Both the position numbers and the translations under genes were made by a program. Positions 7,515-60,701 of a stretch of DNA of 64,000 nt are shown one piece after another (position 1 is the stretch's first letter; each line of letters opens with the position of its first letter). Below the pieces are notes generated by a model that made no database searches, had not been told where the DNA came from, and was given only the letters and a program-made list of their open reading frames with translations. Origin of the DNA: an uncultured Eubacteriales bacterium (lineage in GTDB: Bacteria > Bacillota > Clostridia > Oscillospirales > Oscillospiraceae); NCBI GenBank assembly GCA_949293985.1, contig CASFFN010000008.1:1-64000 (forward strand). Reading direction: 5' to 3'.

Positions 7515-8074
7515 TTACATCTTATGTTGGTAATACGCCATCAAAATAAAGTCTATAATCGTTTTCAGCAGGAAAACTCCTACAAGGACAAGAACTACCC
7601 ATATGGGCGCGCCGATAAAAATACATACCCAAGCGCCTGCCATCAGCAGCCAGTGAAGGATTTCGCCGGATATTGCCTGCGCTTTGCGGCGAATCAGCTG
7701 ATTACGCTCATCTTTTTCTTCAATCTCGTTTAAGGAATCTCTGAACAAATCGTCTTCGGCTGGAAAGCTTATCTTTTTCGCCAGCCATGCAGAATGAAAA
7801 ACAGGAAATACATACAGTATTCCACTGTTTTCCATTCTTTTGTCTGACAAAAAATAGAGCTTCCTTAATTTCATCAAATCGGGATTTTTTGCGCCCCACA
7901 GACCGACGCACCATTTTGCGATACCGTAGCCGAACAGTCCGGCTCCCACGCCAACCATTGCTCCGCTTTGGGAATCGCTCAATTGTCCTGTAAAAAAATT
8001 TTTGCGGCAAGAGCAAAAGCAATGCCCGCAATGCCGATAACAAGATACACTCCTGTTTTTGTTTTATTCTTCAT
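7515..8074 (-). pseudogene. Frameshifted small membrane protein carrying an in-frame MITE insertion
   Basis: Two defects affect one gene. It starts at ATG 8074 (MKNKTKTGVYLVIGIAGIAFALAAKIF...) and overlaps the regulator stop as ATGA. After about 30 codons a run of seven T (five A then seven T on the minus strand, near 7992-8003) puts the reading frame into a stop; one more T would join it to the second open part starting ...TGQLSDSQSGAMVGVGAGLFGY. The second part continues to MKLRKL, then about 45 residues encoded by a 139-bp inverted-repeat element (7730-7868), then NEIEEKDERNQLIRRKAQ and two membrane helices. Without the insert it resembles small two- to three-helix proteins found beside XRE regulators. 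A TTG at 7982 could restart translation, so a shortened product cannot be excluded. A sequencing error in the T-run is possible. Confidence 0.65.
7730..7868. mobile_element. MITE-like element, copy 1 (inside a gene)
   Basis: It has inverted termini TTAAGGAATCTCT (7730) and AGAGCTTCCTTAA (7868), 12 of 13 positions matching. If TTAA belongs to the target, the element is GGAATCTCT...AGAGCTTCC flanked by TTAA. The interior shares a long block (CGCCAGCCATGCAGAATGAA and onward) with copies at 13638-13808 and 24071-24168. It encodes no transposase. Its length keeps the host frame open. Confidence 0.75.
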
Positions 8075-8474: not shown

Positions 8475-8716
8475 AAACGCCGCCTGGGAACAGGCGGCGT
8501 TAGACTGTCAAAAAAGTCCGTTGGACTTTTTTGACAAATTTTTGCAGTCTGCTGCGCGCATATTTTGTCCCTGCGGGACAAAATCCACACTTGCAGCCTG
8601 AGATGTATTTTCCGCCAGGTACACGCCCCGGCGGAAAATGATTTTTGCCGCTTGAAGCGGCAAACTCTGCGAGGCTTTTTGATACGCTGAAACGCCGCCT
8701 GGGAACAGGCGGCGTT
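8475..8716. mobile_element. Terminator-associated repeat element, copy 1
   Basis: Two identical 27-bp stem-loops (CGCCGCCTG-GGAA-CAGGCGGCG within 8475-8501 and 8690-8716) flank a 188-bp insert. The insert begins AGACTGTCAAAAAAGTCC and ends GGCTTTTTGATACGCTG, and holds further hairpins (TTTGTCCC/GGGACAAA; CATTTTCCGCC/GGCGGAAAATG; TTTGCCGCT/AGCGGCAAA). The core is found in reverse orientation at 60489-60676. The stem-loops probably act as terminators for rsmG (minus strand). Confidence 0.75.
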
Positions 8717-15845: not shown

Positions 15846-16153
15846 AAGGGCATCTCGGAACGAGATGCCCTTTTCAGCGTGTCAAAAAACTTTTTGACAC
15901 GCTGGCAGACTGTCAAGAAAGGCACAAAGACAAGCAAACGCCGCACGTAGGCGTACATAGGGTACGGTAGTGCGGCGTTTGCGCAGTAAGGCAAAAGCGT
16001 TGCGAAGCAACATTTTTTCGCTTTTATTGGGAGAACTACACCTGGTTTTCTTTCCAATCCTCCAAAGAGGAAAAAAGCCCGTTTTCTTTTGCTTTTGCCG
16101 GTTTGGGACTTTATTGACAGTCTGAAAGGGCATCTCGGAACGAGATGCCCTTT
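15846..16153. mobile_element. Terminator-associated repeat element, copy 2
   Basis: Identical 28-bp stem-loops (GGGCATCTCG-GAA-CGAGATGCCC plus flanks) at 15846-15873 and 16126-16153 enclose about 252 bp. The insert starts TCAGCGTGTCAAAAAA and ends TTATTGACAGTCTGA, the same two end types as copy 1. The interior differs from copies 1 and 3: it holds a GCAAACGCCGCAC/GTGCGGCGTTTGC hairpin and T-rich stretches. The left stem-loop would terminate the ferritin-like gene and the right one the ABC permease gene from the other side. Confidence 0.7.
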
Positions 16154-23960: not shown

Positions 23961-24320
23961 GGTATATACCGCTCCCTCCGGGAGGGAGCTGTCACCGCAG
24001 GTGACTGAGGGAGCAAGCGGGCGGTAATCTTCCCGTTTGCTGATGGGATGGTACTTGCTTCCAGGTATCCTAAGGAATCTCTGAACAAATCGTCTGCGGC
24101 TGGAAAGCTTATCTTTTTCGCCAGCCATGCAGAATGAAAAACAGGAAATACATACAGTATTCCACTGTCATCAAAAACTTGAGAATCTTGGGGAGGTACC
24201 CTCCGGGATACGCCAATAGGCTGTACTCCCGCTGGCTCCCTCCGTCTTGGGGCTGCGCCCCAAGCCACCTCCCTCCCGGAGGGAGGTGTTGCCGGAAGCC
24301 CTCTGCATGGTAACGATACC
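23961..24320. repeat. Composite intergenic repeat, copy 1, with nested MITE
   Basis: It opens with GCTCCCTCC-GGGAGGGAGC, continues GAGGGAGCAAGCGGGCGGTA and TGGTACTTGCT, and its second half runs CTTGGGGAGGTACC, GGCTCCCTCCGTCTTGGGGC, CCTCCCTCCCGGAGGGAGG and ends TAACGATACC. The same order is found at 30491-30770, 38992-39280 and 39320-39617. In this copy the middle is interrupted by the MITE-like element 24071-24168. Confidence 0.85.
24071..24168. mobile_element. MITE-like element, copy 3 (truncated, nested)
   Basis: It begins TAAGGAATCTCTGAACAAAT and is almost identical to copy 1 for about 98 bp, through CATACAGTATTCCACTGT, then diverges before the right terminus. It interrupts the composite repeat between its two halves. 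Confidence 0.75.
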
Positions 24321-24346
24321 GTGTGGTTTTGAGAAACTGTGAATAA

Positions 24347-30490: not shown

Positions 30491-30770
30491 AGCTCCCTCC
30501 GGGAGGGAGCTGGCGCCGAAGGCGTCTGAGGGAGCAAGCGGGCGGCAAACTTACGATTTTCTTACAGGTTGGTACTTGCTTGTAGTTATCGATACCCTGC
30601 CCTGACTTTTCCGGGCTGCTTCCCCAAACATGACGGCCTTGGGGAGGTACCATCTTTGGCAATCAAACTGGCTATGCGCCCGCTGGCTCCCTCCGTCTTG
30701 GGGCTGCGCCCCAAGACACCTCCCTCCCGGAGGGAGGTATAAACGAAGCTTTCTGCATGGTAACGATACC
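30491..30770. repeat. Composite intergenic repeat, copy 2
   Basis: The same two-part order as at 24.0 and 39 kb: GCTCCCTCC/GGGAGGGAGC opening, GGGAGCAAGCGGGCGG, GGTACTTGCT, then CTTGGGGAGGTACC, TCCGTCTTGGGGCTGCGCCC, CCTCCCTCCCGGAGGGAGG and CATGGTAACGATACC. This copy is uninterrupted and fills the space between the unknown gene and upp. Confidence 0.85.
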
Positions 30771-30865
30771 GGGCACTGGAGGGACAGTAACGAATTGCAG
30801 AAGATTATCGTGCGCTTTGTCAGCGGGCACTGCCCGCCGATACCGGAAAAATTCAGAAAATCAGG

Positions 30866-38577: not shown

Positions 38578-38949
38578 ATGTCATTACCATATGAAAAGCA
38601 GAAAATTGGCAAGGCCAAAGCCCTGCGAAAAAACACAACGCCCCAGGAGAGACGACTTTGGTTCCAATTTTTGCGTGAATATTCCCCCCGGTTTCAGCGG
38701 CAAAAGGCCATTGGCGGCTATATTGTAGATTTTTACTGCCATTATGCAAAATTGGTAGTGGAACTGGATGGCTCTCAGCATTATATGCCCCAGGAAATGG
38801 AGTATGACGAAAAGCGAAGTGCTTGTCTTGAGAAATATGGCCTGAAAATACTCCGTTTCTCCAACGAGGATGTCAACCGCCGCTTTCAGTCCGTCTGCCA
38901 GGCTATCCACCAGGAAGTCTGTCAAAGAACAGCAGCCAGTACCCGCTGA
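38578..38949 (+). CDS. DUF559 (endonuclease-like) protein
   Basis: A 123-residue protein of the DUF559 family, related in fold to very-short-patch-repair nucleases. Conserved features are RRLWFQFLREYSPRFQRQKAIG, the acidic site IVDFYC, LVVELDGSQHY and LKILRFSNEDV. Nuclease activity is inferred from the fold. It has AGAGGGG upstream and may be co-transcribed with tadA. Two copies of the composite repeat follow directly, and these small genes often sit next to repeats and mobile DNA. Confidence 0.82.
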   Translation: MSLPYEKQKIGKAKALRKNTTPQERRLWFQFLREYSPRFQRQKAIGGYIVDFYCHYAKLVVELDGSQHYMPQEMEYDEKRSACLEKYGLKILRFSNEDVNRRFQSVCQAIHQEVCQRTAASTR

Positions 38950-38991
38950 TTCCAGGCAGCAACCGGCGCACAATCTGAAGGTCTGCATCCA

Positions 38992-39280
38992 TAGCTCCCT
39001 CCGGGAGGGAGCTGGCACGGCGTAAGCCGTGACTGAGGGAGCCTGCAGGCGGTAAGCTGACCGTTCGCAGATGGGTTGGTACTTGCTCCATATTGTCGAT
39101 ACCCTAAGACAATTTGCCTGAAAAATGGTTTATGGGATTGGACAGTCCTGGGGAGGTACCACCCCTGTCAATCAAATTGGCATTGCGCCCGATGGCTCCC
39201 TCCGTCTTGGGGCTGCGCCCCAATCCACCTCCCTCCCGGAGGGAGGTATTTTCGGAAGCCTTTCGCAAAACGACGATACC
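38992..39280. repeat. Composite intergenic repeat, copy 3
   Basis: Opening GCTCCCTCCGGGAGGGAGCT, CACGGCGTAAGCCGTG hairpin, GGTACTTGCTCC, CTGGGGAGGTACCACCCCTG, GCTCCCTCCGTCTTGGGGCT, CCTCCCTCCCGGAGGGAGG and an ACGATACC end. It is in direct tandem with copy 4; a shared lead-in (CGGCGCACAATCTGAAGGTC) precedes both. Confidence 0.85.
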
Positions 39281-39319
39281 GGGCGGCAATCGGCGCACAA
39301 TCTGAAGGTCTGCTCCTAT

Positions 39320-39617
39320 AGCTCCCTCCGGGAGGGCGCTGGCACGGCGTAAGCCGTGACTGAGGGAGCCTGCGGGCGGTAAGCTGACGGTTTGCAGATG
39401 GGTTGGTACTTGCTCCATTTTGTCGGTACTCTAAACCGATTTTCTGTGGATTGCCCAGAAATCGGCTTAAGAAACTGGACACGCCTGGGGAGGTACCACC
39501 CCTGTCCGGCAAATCGGCATTGCGCCCGATGGCTCCCTCCGTCTTGGGGCTGCGCCCCAATCCACCTCCCTCCGGTCGGGAGGTATTTTTTGGAAGCCTT
39601 CTGCGTAATAACTACAC
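39320..39617. repeat. Composite intergenic repeat, copy 4
   Basis: The same order of blocks as copy 3, with a slightly degraded opening (GGGAGGGCGC) and closing palindrome (CCTCCCTCCGGTCGGGAGG). The middle spacer between the two halves differs from copy 3 while the blocks are conserved. Confidence 0.85.
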
Positions 39618-39706
39618 CGAAGGGCGTACAGATAGTGTACCACATCCAGGAGGATGAATCCCGTGAAATGTGATGGGGATTTTTCCCGGGTTTGTGGGAG
39701 AAATCC

Positions 39707-60463: not shown

Positions 60464-60701
60464 AGGCGGCGGAGCCGCCTGTGCTTTTCTTAAAAGCCTC
60501 GCAGAGTTTGCCGCTTACAGCGGCAAAGAAAATGAAAATCATTTTCTGCCGGGGCGTGTACCTGGCAGAAAATACCTCTCAGGCTGCAAGTGTGGAATTT
60601 GTCCCCGGAGGGGACAAATTATGCGCGCAGCAGACTGAAAACTTTGTCCCAAAACCCCCGGTTTTGGGACAGAGAGAGGCGGCGGAGCCGCCTGTGCTTT
60701 T
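60464..60701. mobile_element. Terminator-associated repeat element, copy 3
   Basis: Two identical 25-bp stem-loop copies (AGGCGGCGGAGCCGCCTGTG plus CTTTT) at 60464-60488 and 60677-60701 enclose 188 bp. The interior matches copy 1 in reverse orientation (GCCTCGCAGAGTTTGCCGCT onward, GGGGCGTGTACCT loop, GCGCGCAGCAGACTG). Its terminal hairpin reads CCAAAACC/GGTTTTGG, where copy 1 has AAAAAAGTCC/GGACTTTTTT: different sequence, same pairing. The first stem-loop also serves as the fhs terminator, separating fhs from fchA. Confidence 0.75.

Follow-up and report, generated by a model that had tools for sequence, protein, structure and literature searches.

Short non-coding elements that duplicate whole terminator-like hairpins, and their probable link to IS1182-family transposases

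We have analysed a 64,000-nucleotide stretch of DNA (the window), taken from contig C8 of a 2.06-Mb draft genome labelled G000, and find that it contains three short elements, each of which has entered a single hairpin that is now present in full on both sides of the element. The length of the duplication equals the span of the hairpin, and IS1182-family elements with the same ends behave likewise; these points are shown by the sequences. We conclude that the elements are MITEs, probably moved in trans by IS1182-family DDE transposases that target intrinsic-terminator hairpins, although the mobilisation in trans is inferred. They meet the criteria for MITEs in that they are short, lack a transposase gene, occur as dispersed copies, have ends like those of autonomous elements and share with these the targeting of a whole hairpin. 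The host genomes are those of gut bacteria of the Faecousia type; the closest match of the window's MtaB-like protein in a named genome is from Candidatus Faecousia excrementipullorum (86% identical).

Three elements in the window lie between duplicated hairpins

Copy 1, directly downstream of rsmG, consists of 188 bp between two identical copies of the 27-bp sequence AAACGCCGCCTGGGAACAGGCGGCGTT, each of which forms a perfect stem-loop. The 15.9-kb copy has 252 bp between two copies of the 28-bp AAGGGCATCTCGGAACGAGATGCCCTTT, and the 60.5-kb copy, which is flanked by the formate-tetrahydrofolate ligase gene on one side and a gene for an FTCD_C-domain protein on the other, has 188 bp between two copies of the 25-bp AGGCGGCGGAGCCGCCTGTGCTTTT (Table 1). 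The original prediction, which was made without database searches, had claimed a 188-bp insert between identical 27-bp stem-loops and the same architecture, with a hairpin particular to the locus, at 15.9 and 60.5 kb. The coordinates were confirmed and the architecture held for all three. Its assumption of a single element has to be amended, since the three copies represent two families with shared ends: the 8.5-kb and 60.5-kb copies form one family (family 1) in opposite orientation, and the 15.9-kb insert (family 2) has a core unrelated to that of family 1, with the terminal motif alone in common.

Table 1. Coordinates of the three elements, their target hairpins and the folded parts of copy 1 in the window.
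Feature	Position	Strand	Remark
Left target hairpin, copy 1	8475..8501		Stem AACGCCGCCTG/CAGGCGGCGTT, loop GGAA; same stem once at G040 empty site (L352)
Family-1 element, copy 1, 188 bp	8502..8689	+	Match to covariance model R1, E 9.1e-44
Left terminal repeat AGACTGTCAAAAA, copy 1	8502..8514	+	Same motif as IS1182 ends CAGTCTGTCAAAAA
End hairpin P0: left terminal repeat folded on its inverted partner	8506..8536
Helix P1 (8544-8552 with 8593-8600) enclosing hairpin P2 (8562-8584)	8544..8600		Covariation
Hairpin P4, conserved loop AGGTACACGCCC	8607..8639		Covariation
Hairpin P5, then conserved block CTCTGCGAGGC	8644..8664
Right terminal repeat CTTTTTGATACGCTG, copy 1	8675..8689	-
Right target hairpin, copy 1; directly downstream of rsmG (gidB)	8690..8716		Gene by Pfam GidB
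Left target hairpin, family-2 element	15846..15873
Family-2 element, 252 bp, different core, same ends	15874..16125	+	Empty sites in G040, G041
Right target hairpin, family-2 element	16126..16153
Left target hairpin, 60.5 kb, 3' of formate-tetrahydrofolate ligase	60464..60488
Family-1 element, copy 3, ends decayed	60489..60676	-
Right target hairpin, 60.5 kb	60677..60701		One-hairpin empty site in at least 8 species

Relatives have a single hairpin at the empty sites

Empty sites were sought by joining the flanks of filled sites and searching for the joined sequence in related genomes, and single-hairpin empty sites were found for all three window loci. The copy-1 site is empty in G040, where one hairpin, AACGCCGCCTG-TATC-CAGGCGGCGTT, has a stem identical to that in G000; in the majority of the more distant relatives examined, rsmG is immediately followed by a single hairpin with another sequence. 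G040 and G041 lack the 15.9-kb element and have a single hairpin, AAGGGCATCTCAATTTGAGATGCCCTTT, in its place. Both genomes share the 60.5-kb element with G000, whereas the site is empty in G048, G055, G105, G129, G086, G006, G080 and G024, where there is one hairpin, AAGCACAGGC...GCCTGTGCTT or near it.

The original prediction had interpreted the copies as a non-coding mobile element that duplicates the whole hairpin as its target site. It held that single hairpins in sister genomes would support this, and that two hairpins in sisters without the element, or flanking hairpins common to all copies, would refute it. The support was obtained at all three loci; no element-free sister with two hairpins was seen among the sites examined, and the hairpins differ from copy to copy. 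At the filled 60.5-kb site (window 60464-60488 and 60677-60701; loci L141 and L143) both hairpins show the same differences between G000 and G040/G041. Exchange (gene conversion) between the two copies is likely here, and because both loops changed together the identity of flanking hairpins is not proof of a recent insertion.

The duplication is as long as the hairpin

A search of G000 with copy 1 returned 26 matches, ranging from full copies through fragments to end motifs, and the elements, which are approximately 160-265 bp in size, occupy about a dozen places in this genome. The search was extended to 39 other genomes, of which eight from the same genus had 3 to 21 matches each and G030, from another family in the order, had weaker ones. 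The copies carry no transposase gene, and the open reading frames across them are incidental.

For each of 80 complete family-1 copies, collected from 11 genomes within the genus, the two flanks were aligned with each other. A direct repeat scoring at least 16 was present in 55 of the 80 copies and one scoring at least 13 in 61, of which 35 are letter-identical. When the left flank of one copy was instead paired with the right flank of another, none of 800 mismatched pairs reached 16 (maximum 15), which rules out a chance origin of the repeats. The strongest hairpin adjoining the element was also located without using the repeat. In the 60 copies compared, with repeats of 18-35 bp, duplication length tracked hairpin span (r = 0.87), the borders of repeat and hairpin had a median offset of 0 on either side, and the hairpins begin exactly where the element stops.

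About a quarter of family-1 copies have no recognisable hairpin duplication, and none was seen in any of the tested copies from the f7 genomes. A few copies (L051, L196, L203, L208) have a 9-10 bp repeat instead, with no clear hairpin, and some elements, including the IS1182 copies L170 and L171, lie between two different hairpins. At L002, L207 and L376 the stems of the two hairpin copies agree and the loop of one is the reverse complement of that of the other, as if flipped. We also observed mini-elements of approximately 35-45 bp (L012, L016 and L018, at G000:C12:17314, C12:90358 and C23:7704), which comprise little beyond two facing terminal repeats and are each flanked by two different terminator-like hairpins.

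Almost all scored copies (70 of 72) are located at gene 3' ends, 34 between convergent and 36 between tandem genes, and the other two are between divergent genes; within tandem pairs there is no clear preference of orientation (21 vs 15). Gene orientation was assigned by a codon-usage score that was right on 7/7 window genes, the same genes it was trained on. This score replaced a count from the longest open frame, which had given mostly divergent pairs and is prone to choosing antisense frames in genomes as GC-rich as these.

Both families share ends and target behaviour with IS1182-family elements

The core of the 15.9-kb element recurs in G000, G056, G016, G015 and G073. Applied to the window copy and 20 fetched family-2 loci, the automatic test scored 12 as having duplicated hairpins, and inspection by eye added some further loci, again with the same ends; hairpin duplications were seen in most of the complete family-2 copies. 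Two unrelated cores therefore show one target behaviour, which points to the transposase as its source.

Intact IS1182 elements, recognised by the NCBI IS1182 transposase model (NF033551, over cut-off), are present in the genus, and their transposases carry the Pfam domains DUF772 and DDE_Tnp_1_6. The MITE ends AGACTGTCAAAAA and TTTTTGACACGCTG match the IS1182 ends CAGTCTGTCAAAAA and TTTGACAGACTG, and duplicated hairpins are found on both sides of the genus IS1182 elements L054, L172, L176, L177, L179 and L187, that of L177 being approximately 64 bp long. In the wider class, the same ends and hairpin duplications are found in elements L377, L379, L381, L385 and L387-L390, whose transposases share only 44-52% identity with the L187 enzyme. 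Five of these (L385, L387-L390) are IS copies from a single genome, G608; they have identical scores, and each exactly duplicates a different hairpin. Since IS1182 elements with the same ends duplicate alike, the duplication takes its length from the fold of the target and not from a fixed number of bases. No hairpin common to both sides was found for IS1182 copies L170, L171 and L173, no hairpin duplication for L378, L380 and the partial L386 of the wider class, and no flanking repeat for L180 and L188, which have GGGGCTGTCTCA ends and belong to another subgroup.

The mobiliser of both MITE families is thus likely to be an IS1182-family DDE transposase, a partner that the original prediction had missed. 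Because G000 holds only decayed IS1182 relics and no intact partner, the evidence for this assignment is the similarity of ends and behaviour, and no reaction has been demonstrated. One decayed transposase relic, L059 (G000:C10), is among the few traces of the family left in that genome.

The core of family 1 is a conserved fold

An alignment of 31 sequences supports four helices, with 96.4% of cells paired and 15/40 pairs changed on both sides, against 6.8 in shuffles. A covariance model identified the core of approximately 190 bp in 30/295 genomes of the order, from 17 genera and four families, and in 2/291 genomes of a class sample, G000 and one of its family. Across 40 distant copies from 17 genera, double changes were seen at 37 of the 40 pairs (0/500 shuffles as high), and 95.1% of cells pair, compared with 67.7% when shuffled and at most 52% when slid. 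These copies were aligned to the covariance model and hence lean towards its structure. Duplicated hairpins flank 12 of the 40, against 0/800 controls. The original prediction had suggested looking for covariation across copies, and for the folded core it is strong. At L302-L304 (G318), the hairpins duplicated around distant copies of the core are set 22-28 bp outside the limits of the model; other end sequences therefore accompany the core there.

Cells with G.U or A.C are rare in the core and about balanced (13 vs 14; 22 vs 16); in tRNAs found by ARAGORN, which lists no A.C pairs, 7.8% of pairs are G.U. A search of Rfam gave no match at the gathering score and only chance-level matches below it. 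The balance may reflect stems that are kept as DNA, which is not proven, and it is also compatible with a palindrome-repairing mutation process that would give covariation without function, a possibility we cannot exclude. Some constraint appears to act on the folded core, most probably on the DNA itself; as to the role of the core, we can offer only the guess that it takes part in transposition or helps to stabilise the element.

Alternative explanations

The simplest objection is that the hairpins belong to the element, as long terminal hairpins or REP-like ends. Two alike hairpins do bound every window copy, but they match within a locus and differ between loci (as in the mismatched pairs, of which 0/800 reach 16), and the empty sites of relatives carry the local hairpin; we regard this explanation as refuted. 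A tandem duplication of the hairpin followed by insertion of something else between the copies would give the same final layout, but can be all but discounted, as the element-free sister sites examined hold one hairpin and never two, and the element ends abut the hairpins precisely. A further alternative is that the hairpin was replaced, in the manner of IS1272, and that a second hairpin arose later by gene conversion or recombination. In its favour, IS1272 has a transposase of the same family, and targets and deletes hairpins without duplication (PMC4923244, PMC5678879), and the concerted loop changes at 60.5 kb make exchange between hairpin copies probable. However, once a hairpin has been replaced, nothing is left from which two new ones could be copied, the five G608 copies with identical scores each carry an exact duplication of a different hairpin, and the loss of the hairpin without duplication that typifies IS1272 is not what is observed, a hairpin being on both sides in 61/80 copies. 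Replacement is therefore very improbable.

The remaining alternative is that the core is a structured RNA gene, or a cis-regulatory RNA of gene 3' ends, and that its spread is secondary. The copies lie in 3' regions that may be transcribed, and covarying conserved structure, as expected of such an RNA, is present, with double changes at nearly all pairs. Against this, G.U cells are rare and about equal to A.C, unlike in tRNA, so that the strand-specific excess of G.U expected of an RNA is missing; there is no clear orientation preference in tandem pairs, and Rfam gives no family match at the gathering score. An RNA function argued from covariation alone is weakened by the G.U/A.C balance and the absence of a clear orientation bias, and we consider this explanation unlikely.

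Proposed mechanism and relation to known systems

In the textbook account of DDE transposition, the enzyme sets how far apart the two cuts lie, and the resulting target duplication is therefore of almost constant length. Under the explanation that we favour, of MITEs moved by an IS1182-family transposase, the target palindrome would be extruded as a cruciform, or folded as a single strand, and the transposase would join each 3' end of the element at the 5' foot of one stem-loop; gap filling would then copy the hairpin onto each side of the element. Neither the extrusion nor the cut positions are shown by the sequences. Each flanking gene end would retain a terminator, and insertion would be nearly harmless. 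That the host gene keeps a working terminator, as the original prediction had also supposed, is plausible only, the function being inferred and not demonstrated. A bolder reading is that a class-wide IS1182 clade measures its target by shape, cutting an extruded terminator cruciform at both of its feet; that this makes the duplication equal to the hairpin in length (approximately 19 to 64 bp) and leaves the end of the host gene intact; and that at least two unrelated MITE families exploit the clade, one with a core that works as DNA structure. Taken jointly, we think these propositions as likely to fail as to hold.

The original prediction knew of no described element with a hairpin duplication of this kind, and here it needs amending in one respect. 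Insertion of IS1182-family elements into terminator hairpins is already known (PMC4923244, PMC5678879, PMC3098183). IS1272 and TnSha1 of staphylococci, like the elements described here, are associated with an IS1182-family DDE transposase and target hairpins, often terminators, with no sequence consensus, but IS1272 deletes part (PMC4923244) or all of the hairpin and gives no target duplication, whereas the whole hairpin is duplicated here; duplication of a whole hairpin is drawn in PMC5678879 solely as a hypothetical pathway (Fig. 13, pathway b). For ISCbo5/ISBma2, of Clostridium botulinum group III and C. novyi, all ISCbo5 sites but one are hairpins at gene ends that are thought to be transcription stop signals, and a "surrounding hairpin" is mentioned, but the main text neither states nor measures whole-hairpin duplication and does not describe MITEs or empty sites (PMC3098183). 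IS1182-related MITEs in Methanosarcina acetivorans (ISMac2 derivatives, 160-169 bp) are likewise short and non-autonomous with an assigned IS1182 partner, but their direct repeats are apparently 0 or 4 bp, and no hairpin target is given in the relevant sections of PMC3852290. REP-targeting IS elements (PMC1525189) also use palindromes or hairpins as targets, with different enzymes, as do group IIC introns and IS200/IS605; none of these three is known to duplicate a whole palindrome. Long, variable direct repeats are listed for IS1182 in ISfinder, which would lower the novelty of our observation. In the open-access literature searched we did not find measured whole-hairpin duplication by IS1182 elements, only the hypothetical pathway.

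A duplication length that follows the fold of the target points to recognition of DNA structure, and such recognition would account for the spread of these elements through terminators while gene ends stay intact. The duplications could provide a genome-wide record of palindromes that extrude in living cells. A separate question, raised by the folded core of the MITE, is why structure should be conserved across bacterial families in a non-coding parasite.

Other repeats were observed in the window. An interspersed repeat family containing GCTCCCTCCGGGAGGGAGCTG has four copies, including 23971-24321, 30492-30771 and 38948-39619, and similar sequence is also present in loci of G000, G040 and G041. 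A 98-bp repeat at 7731-7828 is 99% identical to 24071-24168.
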